From Lysobacteraceae bacterium (GTDB taxonomy: Bacteria > Pseudomonadota > Gammaproteobacteria > Xanthomonadales > Ahniellaceae), in assembly GCA_021299185.1 (NCBI GenBank), contig JAJTHZ010000099.1, positions 1-32,644 on the forward strand: DNA of 32,644 nt, given 5' to 3'. The first letter of the stretch is position 1; each line of letters begins with the position of its first letter. Shown here piece after piece: positions 18,829-31,451 of the stretch. The translations under genes were made by a program, and so were the position numbers. The notes below the pieces were generated by a model. The model was not told where the DNA came from, made no database searches, and saw only the letters and a list, made by a program, of their open reading frames with translations.

Positions 18829-19398
18829 ATGGCCGCCGCATCGCCGGTTCGCATCGTGCTCGACACCAACGCCTGCCTCGACCTGTTCGTGTTCAACGAC
18901 CGGGTCGGCGGGCCGCTGCGCGCGTTGCTGGAGGCCGGGCGCGCGCAGGCGGTGACGGATGCAGCCTGCCGGTCGGAGTGGCAGCGCGTGCTGCGTTATC
19001 CGCACCTGGGGTTCGACCCGGAGCGCATCGAGGTCGCCGAGGCGGCTTTCGAGGCGTGGGTGGTCGAGTGGGCGGATGCGGGTCCGGACGCGGCCATGCA
19101 TTCGATTCGCGGGCCGGCGTCGACAGTGCCGAAGGCGGCGCCAGCAGGATGGGCCCCGCCGCCGGGTCCGGTCCCGAGCGAGCCCCCGGCGCCGTTGCCG
19201 CCGCTGCCGCGCTGCAAGGACCCCGACGACCAGAAGTTCCTCGAACTGGCCGCCCGCTGCGGCGCCCGCGTGCTGGTCACGCGCGATGCCAGCCTGCTGC
19301 GCCTGTCGAAACGCGCGTTCGCCGTGGCGGGCTTCGTCGTGCTGCCGCCGCAGGCGGCGGTCGCGCTGCTGTATGCCGCCGCACTCCCGCATCCGTAG
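18829..19398 (+). CDS. PIN-domain protein (putative toxin/RNase) with proline-rich insert
   Basis: 189 residues. The PIN fold is shown by Asp12 and Asn14 ([13 protein letters not shown]), Glu50 (CRSEWQRVL), Asp131/Asp134 ([12 protein letters not shown]) and Asp153 ([10 protein letters not shown]), the acidic residues that bind metal in PIN nucleases. It resembles the group annotated as putative toxin-antitoxin toxin component, PIN family. Between the third helix and the acidic motif there is a Pro/Ala-rich stretch of about 35 residues (94-128) not expected in a PIN core. No antitoxin gene sits beside it: upstream is the divergent yedI, downstream a repeat. The TAG stop (19396-19398) is part of the GTAGG start of the REP-like element at 19395. 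Confidence 0.85.
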
Positions 19399-19498
19399 GC
19401 GCGCGCTTGCGCGCGATCGCCACGTCGCGCGCTCGCGGCACGACACCGTTCTTGCCGCAAGCCTTCGGTGTTGCGGTCGCGCGCAAGCGCGCTCCTAC
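19395..19498. repeat. Single two-arm REP-like element, GTAGGAGC type
   Basis: It starts with GTAGGCGCGCGCTTGCGCGC and ends with its near reverse complement, GCGCGCAAGCGCGCTCCTAC, 104 bp in all. It is the same family as each 98-bp unit at 1-393 but with a different centre. The 149 bp after it, up to the end of putP, hold a small palindromic patch and no gene. Confidence 0.85.
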
Positions 19499-19647
19499 GA
19501 CGGCGGCAGGAGGCAGCCGATCGGTGGATACCCTCTTTCGCGCTCTTTCGCGAGCGGGAGAACGGCAGGCGGGATGGTGGGTGGCAGCAAGGCGGAAAAG
19601 CTCGCGGCGCACGCGCCGATTCCACCGGGCCTGAGGGCGTCGCAGAC

Positions 19648-21681: not shown

Positions 21682-21930
21682 CGCACCCGGGAACGCGTTT
21701 CCCACCCCGCATTGCGTCCGTGCGCGCGCGGCCCGTCGGATGCCGCAGGAAGCGTCGGCGCGTTCGCGCTGGAAGATGCCGGGTTGCGACCGCTGGCGAT
21801 CAGCATTCTGCTGATCGACGGGCCGCGTGCGCTCGGTGATCATGCAGCGGCGAGTCCGTGGTGGATGCTGCGCGCATCGGTCCGCGGATCGGGGGGGCGG
21901 GCCCAGGGACTTGATGCGAGGGGAGGGGTG

Positions 21931-23061
21931 GTGAGCGATCGATCCGAGGGGCCGTCGGTCTCGCCGTGGCGGCTGCGCCTGCAGGGCGCGTGGTGGTTCG
22001 CGCTGCTGGCGGGTTTCGTTCTCTGCCTGCCGGTCCTGCTTGGCTGGGGCTGGTGGATGTTGCTGGGCGTGGTGTTGCTGGCGGCGCTGGTCGCCCTGCC
22101 CGCGGCCTGGCTGTTGCGCCGCGTGTCCACCGCGGCGGCGGGGCGATCGTTCGGCGCCGGCTGGCTGCGCGCGACGATCGGCTGGAGCCTGGCGCTCGGG
22201 ATCGCGCTCGCTGCGCCGTCCTACTACCTCGCGACCATCACCGACACGCGCCCGGCCACCATCCCGCAGGTGGCGCCGAGCAACGGCGACAAGCGCGTCG
22301 TGTTCCAGGGCATGCAGCACGTCGCGTCGGAGAACTTCAACAAGGCGGTGATCTAAGACGTGGAGAAAGCGCTGTCGGAGGGCTACGTCATCTACTACGA
22401 GGGCGTGCAGACCGGCAGTCCGGAATCGAAGGCCTTCTTCGGCCAGTTCGCCGACGAACTGACCGGCGGCGGCAAGGACCTCGAGGCGACGTACAAGTCG
22501 ATCGGCGAGGTGTGCGGCATGGCGTTCCAGCTCGACTACTTCGGGCTGCTCGAAGCCGACAAGGCCGCGCACCCCGAGCGCCACGTGATGGCCGACGTCG
22601 ATGCGCTCGAGATGAAGGCCGAATACGAGCGCCTGCTGCGCGAGTACCCCGCGTTCGCGAAGGCGCACGCGAACGACTTCAAGCCCAAGCCCGCGACCGA
22701 CGACGATGCGCTGGCGCTGCGCGTGCTGCAGTGGCTGAAGGACGGCAGCGCATCCCAGCGGGCGCTGGGCGGGATCGCCTGCCGCGGCCTGTGGACCTTG
22801 CTGCTCGCGCCGTCCGCGCCGAAGGCGCCGGGGCCGATGGATGCCGTCGCGCTCGACTTCCGCAACCGCGCGCTTGCGCAGCGCATCATGGAGGACCCGC
22901 GCGAGCGGATCTTCATCACCTACGGCGCCAACCACCTGCCTGGCCTGCTCGCCGAACTGCGCAAGCGCGATCCGCGCTGGGCGGTCGGGTCGGTGAAGTG
23001 GCTGCGCACGATCGAAGCCCCGCAACACCTCGAGGGCCGGCTGCAGGGCGTCGACGGTTGA
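21931..23061 (+). pseudogene. TraB/GumN-like membrane protein interrupted by an in-frame TAA
   Basis: One continuous reading frame of 377 codons broken at 22354-22356 by TAA, with the frame unchanged on both sides. The first part (GTG at 21931 after a GGGGAGGGG ribosome binding site) has two to three hydrophobic helices (about 22-45, 48-65 and 78-95) and then KRVVFQGMQHVASENFNKAVI. After the stop the protein goes on as DVEKALSEGYVIYYEGVQ and ends with FITYGANHLPGLLAEL. The two H-containing segments and YYEG resemble TraB/PrgY/GumN proteins. A single change such as TAC (Tyr) to TAA explains the break. The second half could start at GTG 22360 but would lack the first motif and the membrane anchor. 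Coding bias is normal throughout, so the lesion is recent or a sequencing error. Confidence 0.8.
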
Positions 23062-23335
23062 TGCTCGGGGCGCGCGCCGAAGCCCTTTCGTGATGGCAAG
23101 CCCGTTGCCGCGCAAGCACTGCCGCCTTGTCGAGGGATGGCCCGGGCGCAGGCTCTCGCTGCAGATGTCGTCGTTGTCTTCGGGCCGTCGCACCTCGCGA
23201 ACCCGGCGGTCACGCTGAGAGCGAGCTGTCGATCAGGGTCGAAGCCGGGTTCGGTCTGCCGCGCCCGACAGGTTGACCCCTCCGCTGCGCCCGCAGACCG
23301 ACCGACACCCGCTGGCGGACGCGCCCGCGACCGGG

Positions 23336-23691
23336 CTACGTGACCTCCGGCCACGCCAGCCGCCCGTCCACCACCACGGGCGAGCGGCCGCCGACCCACA
23401 CCGTGCCGTCGGCGTCGATCGCCACGTCGAGCCGCGCGTCGTGGCCGATCTCGCGGCCCTGGCTGACGGTGTAGCCGCGCGACAGCGGGCCGTTTGATTC
23501 CAGTTCGCGCAGCCAGGAGGCGACCAGGCCGTTGGCGGCGCCGGATGCCGGGTCTTCGTCGATACCGACGCCGCACGGGAAGGCGCGCACCACCAGCGCG
23601 GGGGCATCGCCCGGCTGGCGGGCGAAGGCGGTGAGGCCGAGGCTGTCGGCGGCGCGCGCGAGTGCGGCGATCGCCGCATGCGGCGCGCGCC
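23336..23691 (-). pseudogene. 5'-truncated second copy of phzF (C-terminal fragment only)
   Basis: Encodes about 118 residues matching the last 114 or so of the intact phzF at 25630-26517 almost exactly, from APHAAIAALARA through DEDPASGAAN to VVVDGRLAWP. The copies diverge only in the last few residues (EVT here, DTG there). Upstream of 23691 the similarity stops abruptly and the frame continues into unrelated sequence, so the N-terminal half with the catalytic glutamate and the GHP motif is missing. It cannot be a working PhzF enzyme. It is one arm of the 343-bp direct repeat. Confidence 0.9.
23349..23691. repeat. 343-bp direct repeat, copy A (partner 25643-25985)
   Basis: Aligned without gaps at an offset of 2294 bp, I count about ten mismatches, so near 97% identity. 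The repeat starts at GGCCACGCCAGCCGCCCGTC, just inside the phzF 3' end, and ends at the CATGCGG(C/G)GCGCGCC junction. Copy B is the 3' part of the intact phzF gene. The two copies bracket 1951 bp holding one gene for a secreted protein. Confidence 0.93.
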
Positions 23692-24212
23692 GGGTCCGTA
23701 AATTCCGAGGCCACAGCGCGATTTCCCTGGATGCGCACTGCCGCGGCGCCGTCCTTTGCGATCGGCAATGGGCACGCGCCGATACGCGCGCAGGCGACGT
23801 CCTCGTGTCGACACCCGCGACGGGGTGGCGCGGGCTCGTCCAGGCTGCGGCGCGCGCACCGCCGGGCAGGTTTTCGGTGCCGGCGGGATGGCCGTCGAAG
23901 GCATGGAGGGCGTTCCGGCGCATCGGCCGGCGGCGGGGCCCGGCCGCGTGACACGATCGACGGCCTGATTACGCGTTGGGTCGTAACGGGGCGGCCCACA
24001 CGCGAGGATCGTGCAATGAGCAACGACGGCATCACGGCGGTTTCAGGTCGGAGCGGTTTCTGCGCCAGATACGGGCGAAGCGCGCGGAACCGGGTGGTGC
24101 ATGCCGGTACGCGGACCTCACGCAGGGGCAGGTGCGTTCGGGGCTGCGCTGGGCTTTCTGCGTGTCGCGGACCGTGCATCGCCCACGGATCGACGGATCG
24201 AGGAGTGCGAGC
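23692..24212. other. Non-coding stretch between truncated phzF and the secreted-protein gene
   Basis: 521 bp without a convincing gene. Third-position GC bias is weaker than in neighbours. Open frames here are short and Arg/Cys-rich. The only candidate is a 66-codon frame from ATG 24016 (after GAGGATCG) to TGA 24216, which overlaps the next start by ATGA; I do not call it. It probably carries the promoter of the secreted-protein gene. Confidence 0.5.
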
Positions 24213-25559
24213 ATGAAGCGATGGACATGGAGGGTGGCGCTCAGCGCAGCAATCGCAGGCTTCGCGCCGGTGTCGGTGTCTGGTGCGGACTGGTCGCTCA
24301 CGTTTGCCGCGGGCCACGGCGCGGAAGTGATGCCGGCAGGCCCGCATGCGGTCCAGGACGACCAGAATGGAAACCTGCTGTTCTTCACCCGCGTTTCCGG
24401 GTTGTTGGACGACGGTGGCGGCGACGCGACCTGGATCGCACACACGGTCAATGGCGACGGCAAGGTGGTGCGACCGTCGCGACGCTATGCGCCTGCGCCG
24501 ACCAAGATCTCGGCACACCTGCGCGGCGTGCATGCCTACAACGACCATCGCGTCGCGTGGTTCGAGGTCGACACCCATCCGCCGGCCGACGTGGTGACCG
24601 TCGACGATCCCTGTGCCGGGCGCACGCTGCAGCTCGACCTGCCGCGCTCGGCGGGGGCGGTCGTGCACGCGGCGTCCGGCGACGGCGAGGGCGGCCTGCT
24701 GCTGCTGCGGGTTCGGGCCGGCGATCCGATGCCGCGGCTCGAACGCCATGTGCCCGTCGCCGGCGCGCTGCAACTGGCCTGGGCGACGCCGATGGCGTCC
24801 TGTGCGCCGGGCACGCAGCGGTTCCGGGTGCTGGGTGCCACGCTCGACATTGCGCGCGACTCGCCCGCGTTCTCGCGGCTGCATGTGTTCGGCTTCTGCG
24901 ACGCGCGCCCGTTGCCCGGCGATACCGTGATCCTCGGCGTCGACCACGGCAGCGGTGCGGTGCTCGAACAGCAGCGTTTCGATGCGTCCTGGGCCGCGAG
25001 CGGCGCCGAGCCGCTGGCGGCGATCGGTGATGGCGCGTGGCTCGGGCAGCGCGTCGCCGCGGACTGCAGGCGCGACCTCGTCGTCCTCGATGCGCAGTTC
25101 GGGGAGTCCGCGCTGTCGTTCGACTCCTACGCGGCCCGCGCCACGGTCTGGCGCGTGCCGGGCGGGGCGCTGCTGGGCGCGCGGCTGCCGCAGCAGTCGG
25201 GTCGCTTCGTCCTGGGGCGGCTGCAGTGCGACACCGGCGGGCCGTTCAGGCTGTTCTCCACGCGCGACTATCCTGCCGTGGCGTCGATTGATCCCGCGCA
25301 ACTGACATGGACCGCCGACCTCGCCGACCGCCGCGTCGCGGCTTTCGTATCGAAGTCCGACAAGGCAGGCGAGTCTGAGGCGACGATGCTCGGTTTCGCG
25401 GCCACCGGCGCGGTGTCGTGGACGCGCAGCCTGCCTACGATCGACCCCGGGCGGCCCGTGCTCGGACTCGAACCCTGGTCGCGCACCTTCGTCCTGGCGG
25501 CAGGCACCCTCAACATGCGATTCGGCAGCGAGACCGTCGTGATCGGGCATCGGCCCTGA
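24213..25559 (+). CDS. Secreted protein of unknown function
   Basis: 448 residues, not recognised. ATG at 24213 has an AGGAG ribosome binding site 7 bp upstream and opens a signal peptide (MKRWTWRVALSAAIAGFAPV, cleaved near SVSG/AD). The mature part alternates short hydrophobic strands with Asp/Gly turns, for example NGNLLFFTRVSGLLDDGGGD, GEGGLLLLRVRAGD and GDTVILGVDHGSGAVLEQQ. This pattern fits a beta-propeller or other all-beta fold of the kind found in secreted proteins that track DNGNL-type repeats. About six cysteines could form disulfides. No catalytic motif or C-terminal anchor is visible. It is the only gene between the two copies of the phzF direct repeat, so it may have arrived by the event that made them. 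Confidence 0.78.
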   Translation: MKRWTWRVALSAAIAGFAPVSVSGADWSLTFAAGHGAEVMPAGPHAVQDDQNGNLLFFTRVSGLLDDGGGDATWIAHTVNGDGKVVRPSRRYAPAPTKISAHLRGVHAYNDHRVAWFEVDTHPPADVVTVDDPCAGRTLQLDLPRSAGAVVHAASGDGEGGLLLLRVRAGDPMPRLERHVPVAGALQLAWATPMASCAPGTQRFRVLGATLDIARDSPAFSRLHVFGFCDARPLPGDTVILGVDHGSGAVLEQQRFDASWAASGAEPLAAIGDGAWLGQRVAADCRRDLVVLDAQFGESALSFDSYAARATVWRVPGGALLGARLPQQSGRFVLGRLQCDTGGPFRLFSTRDYPAVASIDPAQLTWTADLADRRVAAFVSKSDKAGESEATMLGFAATGAVSWTRSLPTIDPGRPVLGLEPWSRTFVLAAGTLNMRFGSETVVIGHRP

Positions 25560-25629
25560 CGCAGGAAGTCGGCATCGGCCGGCGCCGCTGGCGTGCAGCG
25601 GGCTGCTGGGTCGTCGCCGTATCGCACGG

Positions 25630-26517
25630 TCAGCCGGTATCAGGCCACGCCAGCCGCCCGTCCACCACCACGTGCGAGCGGCCGCCGACCCACACCGTGC
25701 CGTCGGCGTCGATCGCCACGTCGAGTCGCGCGTCGTGGCCGATCTCGCGGCCCTGGCTGACGGTGTAGCCGCGCGACAGCGGGCCGTTTGGTTCCAATTC
25801 GCGCAGCCAGGAGGCGATCAGGCCATTGGCGGCGCCGGATGCCGGGTCTTCGTCGATACCGACGCCGCACGGGAAGGCGCGCACCACTAGCGCGGGGGCA
25901 TCGCCCGGCTGGCGGGCGAAGGCGGTGAGGCCGAGGCTGTCGGTGGCGCGCGCTAGTGCGGCGATCGCCGCATGCGGGGCGCGCCAGGCGCGCAGCGCCG
26001 CCGGATCGGCGAACTCCACCACCCACCAGCGGCGGCCGCCTTCCACCAGCGCGGTGGGCGAAGGGCCGGTGGCGATGCCGTCGAGGATGAAGGCGAGGCT
26101 GGCGTCCAGGTCGGGCGCGCGACGCAGGCAGCGCGCCGCGGGAGACTGCACGGCGATCCGCCATTCGCCGGCCGGGCCCTCGACGCGCAGCGGCAGCAGT
26201 CCGGCGCCGCACTCCTGCACCAGACGACCCTGCGGCGCCATCGCGGCACCGGTGCTCAGCGCGGCATGCGCGGTGCCGACGCTGGGATGGCCGGCGAAGG
26301 GAATCTCGCGCACCGGGGTGTAGATGCGCACGCGGTAATCGGCGCCGGCCACCGTCGGCGGCAGCACGAAGGTGGTCTCGACCAGGTCCAGCCAGCGCGC
26401 GAGCGACTGCAACCGGCGATCGGACCAGCCGTCGGCGCCCAGCACCACGCCCAGCGGGTTGCCGCCGCCGGCGCGCTCGGTGAACACATCGAGTTGCAGG
26501 AACCGGACGTCGCGCAT
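25630..26517 (-). CDS. PhzF-family isomerase/epimerase-like protein
   Basis: 295 residues, full length for the family, with the two-lobed diaminopimelate-epimerase fold. Typical motifs are the N-terminal FLQLDVFTERAGGGNPLGVV, the likely catalytic Glu47 in LVETTFVLPP, GHPSVGTAHA (76-85) and DEDPASGAANGL in the second lobe. PhzF itself isomerises a phenazine precursor; most family members, including this one with no phenazine genes near it, have unknown substrates. Its 3' 343 bp recurs at 23349-23691. It is divergent from the GNAT gene, with 59 bp between the starts. Confidence 0.92.
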   Translation of the reverse strand: MRDVRFLQLDVFTERAGGGNPLGVVLGADGWSDRRLQSLARWLDLVETTFVLPPTVAGADYRVRIYTPVREIPFAGHPSVGTAHAALSTGAAMAPQGRLVQECGAGLLPLRVEGPAGEWRIAVQSPAARCLRRAPDLDASLAFILDGIATGPSPTALVEGGRRWWVVEFADPAALRAWRAPHAAIAALARATDSLGLTAFARQPGDAPALVVRAFPCGVGIDEDPASGAANGLIASWLRELEPNGPLSRGYTVSQGREIGHDARLDVAIDADGTVWVGGRSHVVVDGRLAWPDTG

Positions 26518-26576
26518 CGCGCGAGCCTAGCCGATCCACCGCTGGCGCGACACCGCGCGCGTGCGACAATCGCCGC

Positions 26577-27137
26577 GTGCACGAGGCCGTCGACATCCTG
26601 CAGACGCCGCGCCTGTTGCTGCGCCGCTTCCGCGACGAGCCGGCCGACTTCGAGCACTACGCGGGCCTGTATGCGGACCCGGACGTGGCGCGGCACGTCG
26701 GCGGCGTGCAGAGCCGCGAGCAGGCGGCGCAGACCTACGACGAGCGCATCCTGCGCTACTACGACGCCAACCCGGGCCTCGGCATCTGGGCCACCTTCGA
26801 GCGCGAGGGGGGCGCCTTCGTAGGCCTGCACTTGTTGAACCACATCCGCGGCGATACCTTGCTGCAAGTGGGCTACAGCCTGCGTCGCGCGGCCTGGGGT
26901 CGCGGCTACGCCACCGAGATGGCGCGCGCAGTGATGCGGTACGGCTTCCGCACGCTGGGGCTGCCGATCGTCCACGCCATCGTGAACCTCGACAACGGGG
27001 CCTCGATGAAGGTGCTGCACAAGCTCGGCATGCGGCGCGAAGGCGAGCGCGCGTTCGCAGCCTACGGCCCGCGGCCGCTGGCCTGGTTCGAGTGCCTGCC
27101 AAACGAATTCCGCGATGGCGACGGCGACAGCGACTGA
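26577..27137 (+). CDS. GNAT-family N-acetyltransferase (RimJ/RimL-like)
   Basis: 186 residues, GTG start. The opening LQTPRLLLRRFRDEPADFEHYAGLY is the standard Acetyltransf_3 start (TxRLxLR). The acetyl-CoA loop is in AWGRGYATEMARAVMRYGF (RGxA/G pattern) and the late motif is VNLDNGASMKVLHKLGMRREGE, where N..S..V..KLGF/M is diagnostic. It transfers an acetyl group from acetyl-CoA to an amine, perhaps a protein N-terminus or a small molecule; the acceptor is unknown. GTG at 26577 is the first start after the divergent phzF start, and the family N-terminus begins within ten residues of it. Its stop lies 36 bp from the stop of convergent nei. Confidence 0.9.
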   Translation: MHEAVDILQTPRLLLRRFRDEPADFEHYAGLYADPDVARHVGGVQSREQAAQTYDERILRYYDANPGLGIWATFEREGGAFVGLHLLNHIRGDTLLQVGYSLRRAAWGRGYATEMARAVMRYGFRTLGLPIVHAIVNLDNGASMKVLHKLGMRREGERAFAAYGPRPLAWFECLPNEFRDGDGDSD

Positions 27138-27173
27138 ACAGTTCGAGCATCGAGCGGCCTCAGCCCTCAGCCC

Positions 27174-27992
27174 TCAAACCTGGCACCCCGGACAGGCATA
27201 CAGGCGGCGCCCGCCAGTCTCCGAGCGCTCGATGAGCTCGCCGCAGGTCCAGCAGGGCAGGCCGTCGCGGTCGAACACGTGGAAGCGCCGGGTCTCGAAC
27301 GACAGCCCTTCGGCTTTCAGTTGCTGCGCTCGCTGCCAGTCGTTGGTGACGCCGGCGCGTTTCCACGCCTGACGCCCGACGGCGACGATCGCCTCCGCCA
27401 GCGCAGTGCGTTCGCGGTCGTCGAGGTCCTTCGGGCGACGATCGGCGCGGATGCCGGCGACGAACAGCATCTCGCTGCGCAGGTAGTTGCCGATGCCGGC
27501 CACGAAGGCCTGGTCGAGCAGCACGGCGGCCAGCGTGCGACCGGCGAAGCGGCGGTCGGCAAGTCGCGCTTCCACCACCGCTGGCGTGGTGGCCTCGTCG
27601 AGCAGGTCGGGTCCCAGTTTCGCCAGGAACGGGTGCGCCGCCATCCCGCGCGCATCCAGCACCGCGATGTCCGACGCGCTGTAGAGCAGAATGGCGTCGG
27701 TATCGGTCTCGATCGAGAGCCGCAGTTCGCGGTTGATGCGCGGGCGCTCGCCCGCTCGCGCCACCATCCAGCGGCCGTAGAGCTGGTTGTGGCTGTAGAT
27801 CGTCAGCCCGCCCTCGAAGGAGGTCAGCAGCGCCTTGCCGCGCGGACGGATGCGCAGCACGCGTTGGCCGGACAGCTTGGCGCCGAAGCGGCGCAGCAGG
27901 GGCAGGCCGAACGCGACCTTGAGTGCGACGTCACCCTCGACCGCGCGTGCGAGGCGATCGGCGGCGCGGCGGATCTCGGGGCCCTCTGGCAT
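27174..27992 (-). CDS. nei: Endonuclease VIII (Nei), Fpg/Nei DNA glycosylase
   Basis: 272 residues (E. coli Nei has 263). The N-terminus MPEGPEIRRAADRLA has the catalytic Pro and Glu right after Met, as in E. coli Nei. RGKALLTSFEGGLTIYSHNQLYGRW carries the conserved lysine. The helix-two-turn-helix segment is LLDQAFVAGIGNYLRSEML. A C-terminal zinc finger of four cysteines (CWTC ... CPGC) ends the protein. It removes oxidised pyrimidines from DNA and nicks the abasic site, in base-excision repair. ATG at 27992 is fixed by the required Pro-Glu N-terminus even though the frame is open further upstream. It is divergent from the metalloprotease gene. Confidence 0.95.
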   Translation of the reverse strand: MPEGPEIRRAADRLARAVEGDVALKVAFGLPLLRRFGAKLSGQRVLRIRPRGKALLTSFEGGLTIYSHNQLYGRWMVARAGERPRINRELRLSIETDTDAILLYSASDIAVLDARGMAAHPFLAKLGPDLLDEATTPAVVEARLADRRFAGRTLAAVLLDQAFVAGIGNYLRSEMLFVAGIRADRRPKDLDDRERTALAEAIVAVGRQAWKRAGVTNDWQRAQQLKAEGLSFETRRFHVFDRDGLPCWTCGELIERSETGGRRLYACPGCQV

Positions 27993-28135
27993 GGTGGCAG
28001 ATTCGGGGATCGGCGGTACACCGGGCGTGAAGCGGCGCCACCCGTCGCGCGGCCGCTGCCGGAAGTCGGGGCCGCCGCCGACCAGGGTGGCGGGTTGTGG
28101 ATACTCCGTCGGCTTCGGGATCGGGGATCGGAACC

Positions 28136-31246: not shown

Positions 31247-31290
31247 GCGCGTGGGTGCTTGGGTGGGTTCGGGTGTTGGGGGCGGAGCGA

Positions 31291-31451
31291 GGGCCCAGGG
31301 CCCAGGGTATAGGGCCCAGGGTATAGGGCCCAGGGCCCAGGGGTGGGCAGGGTGCGTGGTCGCGGCGCGATGGGCGGGCGTGACTGACAGGCTGCGCCAC
31401 ACTGCCCCCGCTATTCCTTCGGCTGGGCCCTGTACCCTGGGCCCCGGGCCC
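31291..31451. repeat. GGGCCCAGGGTATA tandem patch with a downstream inverted copy
   Basis: 31291-31340 contains tandem GGGCCCAGG units, including two copies of CCCAGGGTATAGGG. The reverse-complement form GGGCCCTGTACCCTGGGCCC lies at 31425-31444, so an 80-90 bp loop with a GC-rich stem can form just downstream of the protease gene stop. The stretch 31247-31516 holds no gene. It might end transcription of both convergent genes, though there is no T-run. Confidence 0.7.

Follow-up and report, generated by a model that had tools for sequence, protein, structure and literature searches.

A duplicated phzF 3' end on both sides of an orphan gene, a possible scar of recombination within phzF

How did a second 3' end of a phzF gene, lacking its 5' part, come to lie beyond the intact gene, with an orphan gene between the two? 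The question is raised by a direct repeat in the window, as we call the whole analysed stretch of 32,644 nucleotides (C105:1-32644), which comes from a draft genome of 4.84 Mb in 270 contigs. The ungapped alignment of 23349-23691 with 25643-25985 has 343 columns, 333 of them identical and 10 mismatched (97.1%); uninterrupted identity reaches 64 bp at most, and the pair stands far above chance level (blastn E = 3e-168). These coordinates, an identity of about 97% and the absence of gaps had been described in an earlier note on this DNA, and all were borne out. The same holds for its placing of one copy in the 3' end of a full phzF (26517-25630) and of the other in a piece without the 5' part, with which the profile matches agree, and for its 1951 bp between the copies with one secreted-protein gene, the open reading frame (ORF) at 24213-25559, whose signal peptide is judged by eye from the N-terminus. 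The locus is made up of the following features:

25630-26517, minus strand: intact phzF-family gene, 295 aa, with profile matches to PF02567 and TIGR00654
25643-25985, minus strand: repeat copy within the intact phzF, from the ungapped pair alignment
25560-25642, no strand: stretch from the stop of the cargo gene to the repeat edge in the intact copy, including the phzF stop and last three codons (25630-25641)
24213-25559, plus strand: orphan gene (the cargo) for a predicted secreted protein of 448 aa, an ORF in no family library
23692-24212, no strand: spacer part of 521 bp without clear coding signature (flat codon-position GC)
23349-23691, minus strand: repeat copy forming a 5'-truncated phzF 3' fragment, whose frame closes at the stop 23336-23338

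The intact gene belongs to the PhzF family by full-length matches over the curated cut-offs, with E = 7.6e-48 and 163.9 bits against PF02567 (cut-off 27, profile 1-281 covered) and E = 1.2e-49 and 169.3 bits against TIGR00654 (cut-off 76.2). The fragment ORF obtains 35.6 bits with PF02567, on profile positions 188-280 of 281 alone; what the truncated copy retains of the family is roughly its 120 C-terminal residues. In the own genome, the protein search for PhzF gave two places in all, both at this locus, and at the DNA level 23000-26600 matched itself and, weakly, three stretches of 30-43 bp, one of which lies within the locus. The direct repeat brackets the insert, with the full gene first and the truncated copy last, as in a single-crossover (Campbell-type) layout; this order and the 97% ungapped identity were counted for an insertion scar.

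The explanation that we tentatively prefer, at somewhat less than an even chance, is a partial merodiploid scar left by recombination within phzF between the resident gene and incoming DNA. The proposed event is a recombination in the 3' third of the resident phzF with a molecule on which a phzF 3' end was followed by different DNA, namely the orphan gene. The result would be an intact phzF, then the orphan gene, and then the displaced 3' end, severed from phzF's own promoter; later, the intact gene would have been held by purifying selection while the fragment drifted. The repeat, the truncation, the differing types of change and the two native-like but unlike 3' ends are observed; that two phzF contexts were joined by recombination, and in which direction, we infer. 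The earlier note had proposed a single crossover with a circular molecule: the order is that expected of a single crossover, and the two native-like, differing 3' ends support a joining of two phzF contexts, but neither a circle nor an integrase was found, nor an empty site in a searched set whose one genome of the genus is the own, and the cargo is host-like in GC content and only mildly atypical in codon usage. A circular donor is a one-step route to this layout, yet a circle is not required. Loss of the cargo by recombination of the repeat, suggested in the same place, is possible in principle.

The ten mismatches give information on what happened to the copies after they separated. Their polarity was read from 56 of 66 listed homologues (the own locus, one partial and the eight lowest-scoring were dropped), a set that includes one actinobacterial sequence (L058) and sequences with identical ends (L016 and L041, at least), so the rows are not independent. 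All four amino-acid differences place the fragment away from the common residue. At residue 282, His is replaced by Pro (His in 20/56 homologues, Pro in 0/56); at 243, Pro by Ser (49/56 and 0/56); at 234, Ile by Val (49/56 and 2/56); and at 192, Thr by Ala (Ser or Thr in 51/56, Ala in 0/56). The six remaining differences are synonymous: judging by homologue codons four are derived in the intact copy, site 23503 is derived there by codon rarity alone, and site 23684 has no assignable polarity; all these assignments are rough, since the closest homologues of the intact phzF within the order are merely 55-65% identical. Every one of the four or five derived changes of the intact copy is thus synonymous, whereas the polarised changes of the fragment are nonsynonymous in 4 of 4 cases. 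Under random change in the repeat, the expected nonsynonymous share is 73%, which gives a probability of 0.0015 for none in five and 0.0055 for none in four. Fisher's exact test for the contrast of change types yields p = 0.008 with five sites and 0.029 with four, rising to 0.048 when one doubtful site is assigned to the fragment and to 0.076 when both are. Changes of both types are intermixed along the repeat and mark no mosaic boundary. By this pattern the truncated copy is drifting and the full gene is not; the contrast between the copies was counted for an insertion scar, the roughness of the polarisation against it.

The 3' ends of the copies bear on whether one or two phzF contexts were involved. 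The DNA likeness stops about 10 nt ahead of the stop codon, and consequently the last codons and the stop differ between the copies. The intact protein ends in LAWPDTG and the fragment in LAWPEVT, each 4 residues past the conserved Trp; this distance is 5 residues or fewer in 49/56 homologues, and exactly 4 in 12 of these. A random frame in this DNA reaches a stop within 4 codons in 3.0-4.5% of cases, although the idea for this test came only once the sequence had been seen, which lowers its weight. In the intact copy, a normal terminus could also be kept by selection; both points were counted against an insertion scar. The downstream flanks of the two copies show no likeness over shuffles (alignment score 18, shuffle mean 19.8). 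Both ends therefore look like genuine phzF ends with differing downstream DNA, as far as their sequences tell, and this makes recombination of two phzF contexts, or the remains of two genes, more likely than local copying in which a stop arose by accident. The native-like ends and the unlike 3' flanks were together counted for an insertion scar.

No family membership was found for the cargo protein in Pfam, NCBIfam, PHROGs and PADLOC, and the best match to solved structures (E = 0.26) gives no convincing relative; the single-sequence AlphaFold2 model is poor, with a mean pLDDT of 35.2. Searches of 10 family genomes, 398 genomes of the order and 369 of the class, each set including the own genome, found the protein in that genome only; the order- and class-level searches covered sampled genomes with up to 4 candidates scored in each, and the genus is represented in the searched set by the own genome (G000) alone. 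The plasmid and phage collections gave no hit to the cargo protein, and viral contigs gave no confirmed relative, absence from samples being weak evidence. Its GC content is 0.713, against 0.718 for the window, with 0.86 at third positions, and by codon score the cargo ranks second from the bottom among 25 window genes, beside the cupin gene. On composition and searches, the cargo appears to be an orphan, mildly atypical in codon usage and not demonstrably foreign. The low codon score was counted for an insertion scar; the GC content equal to that of the window and the lack of a plasmid, phage or viral contig with the cargo were counted against it.

The surroundings of phzF in other genomes were also compared. 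Nine neighbour genes from the window gave a single match among 55 related phzF loci, of which L003-L021 carry merely about 1.5 kb of flank; the match is a GNAT gene lying nearly 4 kb off in L052. The relatives compared do not preserve this neighbourhood, so it gives the event no polarity; the presence of phzF among other neighbours in relatives was counted for an insertion scar. In the plasmid DNA search with the 5 kb of 22300-27300, 29 records match at 60-80% identity. In the 20 of these matches that are listed, the matched part is phzF parts and none spans most of the query; phzF genes thus do travel on plasmids, which was likewise counted for an insertion scar, and none of the phzF-bearing plasmids among the matches listed has the cargo. 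No tRNA, tmRNA or Rfam family that could mark an attachment site lies in the window. The promoter and terminator scans stay at chance level, with 0 and 1 found and 0.1 and 1.0 expected.

Among the competing explanations, a local rearrangement without foreign DNA is rather unlikely, although it comes closest to the preferred one. It assumes either that the phzF 3' end and the cargo were duplicated in tandem and the second cargo was lost, or that some 343 bp were copied from the gene as a template and placed downstream of a cargo that had always been there. The host-like GC of the cargo and the restriction of phzF to two genome places, both here, agree with such a history, and small duplications without flanking repeats are reported in Streptococcus pneumoniae (PMC3784515). 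However, one in-frame 3' end of native length would have to be accidental (about 3-4.5%), and the left flank, 23062-23348, holds no trace of a second spacer (score 24, shuffle mean 27). The native-like ends in both copies are explained without such an accident if the locus is the relic of a tandem phzF pair, in which the 5' part of the second gene was deleted or was lost at the entry of the cargo, the 3' ends being kept similar by gene conversion. Adjacent phzF genes are indeed present in the order (e.g., in G010, G021, G030, G045, G051, and L055), but these are 45-52% identical to the query. In 23692-24212 the frameshift-tolerant profile detected no phzF 5' remnant: the score of 15.1 lies below the control mean of 19.3 and is equalled or beaten by 548/586 window-segment controls and 187/300 shuffles. 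Six-frame hmmsearch found nothing significant for phzF outside the repeat. The power of the profile search was tested on simulated copies: those with 5% redrawn bases score at least 264.6 in 40 trials; with 30% redrawn the mean is 92.9 and the minimum of 40 trials 29.2, controls reaching 35.6, and with 50% the mean is 28.8 and the minimum 15.1. Most copies with 30% redrawn are thus detected but detection at 50% or more is unreliable, so a very old phzF remnant would escape. A plain DNA alignment of both upstream regions speaks for the pair, with a score of 37 matched by just 5/300 shuffles, and was put down to chance in view of the negative profile result. Taken with both sides of this evidence, the tandem-pair origin is improbable. 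Motifs resembling a decayed phzF 5' part had been picked out by eye upstream of 23692; the profile and six-frame searches are against this candidate. Pfam has no match for two additional ORFs taken from the non-coding spacer part.

Two other possibilities concern the assembly and site-specific elements. An assembly or strain-mixture chimera with its join at 23691/23692 would suit a draft in 270 contigs and the entirely different 3' flanks. Copies whose longest shared identical run is 64 bp should, however, be resolved at common assembly k-mer sizes, and the amino-acid changes of the fragment hit conserved sites, unlike those of a functional allele of another strain; there is a small chance that the locus arose in this way. 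It is slighter still for the remnant of a site-specific element that entered the phzF 3' end in the manner of prophage e14 in icd of E. coli and then lost its integrase. Prophage e14 encodes an integrase, and Hill et al. in 1989 are said to be the source for its integration in icd. The geometry matches: at icd and, on this reading, at phzF, the 3' piece of the gene is moved downstream, the incoming DNA gives the working 3' end and the insert is bracketed by a direct repeat, which at icd is a 163-bp icd' duplicate (PMC6379469) and at phzF a repeat of 343 bp. Yet e14 is a site-specific prophage in that account, whereas the phzF spacer measures just 1951 bp, holds no integrase and has a single orphan gene, without a phage family match. 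That no integrase is visible had already been remarked in the earlier note, and the searches agree: the spacer's gene has no Pfam match, Phage_integrase is absent from the whole contig, and its 6 places in the genome are all on other contigs. The boldest reading makes the locus a minimal non-autonomous integrative unit of 2.3 kb, which would use the phzF end as homology for attachment and excision, ferry a lineage-specific secreted protein between hosts and excise by the 343-bp repeat; we regard it as highly improbable.

The preferred reading, a scar of recombination between resident phzF and incoming DNA, looks like an ordinary old event, not like a mobile element of a new type. The broad class, partial merodiploidy, is known; this example is seen in one genome, and its oddity is the orphan gene. 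The merodiploids arising by transformation of S. pneumoniae are similar in that recombination duplicates part of the chromosome and the extra copies stay in the same chromosome; of those described, most are large with repeats at their borders, while a small one (3,276 bp) has none (PMC3784515). The phzF locus differs from them in that a piece of a gene is truncated, the copies have diverged by about 3% and a further gene lies between them. The tpsA/tpsC 3' cassettes of Neisseria meningitidis share the order of full gene, intervening ORF and 5'-truncated relative; tpsC cassettes have varied 3' ends and can exchange the end of a growth-inhibiting protein (PMC3848433). At phzF, by contrast, fragment and full gene share one 3' end and the family is one of enzymes, so an exchange would bring no variation. 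If the recombination reading is true, the locus is another case in which an unknown gene was added beside a working gene without breaking it. No general idea is changed by it; its value is that of a small scar with measurable drift, and of a caution that a direct repeat alone should not be read as a mobile element.

Several other features of the window were recorded. The TraB/GumN-like gene next to the phzF fragment (21712-23061, plus strand) appears to be interrupted at 22354-22356 by an in-frame TAA, beyond which the frame runs on unshifted; the second part alone matches PF01963, under the cut-off, and this neighbour may, from its reading frame, itself be a broken gene. No relative of the second part was found among the other 9 family genomes, so the stretch may be lineage-specific as a whole. 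On the opposite side of the locus lies an endonuclease VIII (Nei)-type gene (27174-28001, minus strand), over the NCBIfam cut-off, with a close relative (65%) in one of the 9 other family genomes, G007, and distant matches only in the remaining 8. The contig starts with a 98-bp unit repeated four times in tandem (1-394, 93% matching), each unit having palindromic GC-rich words such as GTAGGAGC..GCTTGC, which we take to resemble REP elements. Palindromic words of the same kind occur in an imperfect inverted repeat of 60 bp at 19384-19509 (77% complementary, 6-bp loop), located at the end of a PIN-domain gene and in the spacer before a symporter-like gene, the latter named by eye. A short tandem repeat at 31290-31342, with the 14-bp unit AGGGCCCAGGGTAT at 31297-31335, lies 3' of the gene of a large PKD-domain protein.
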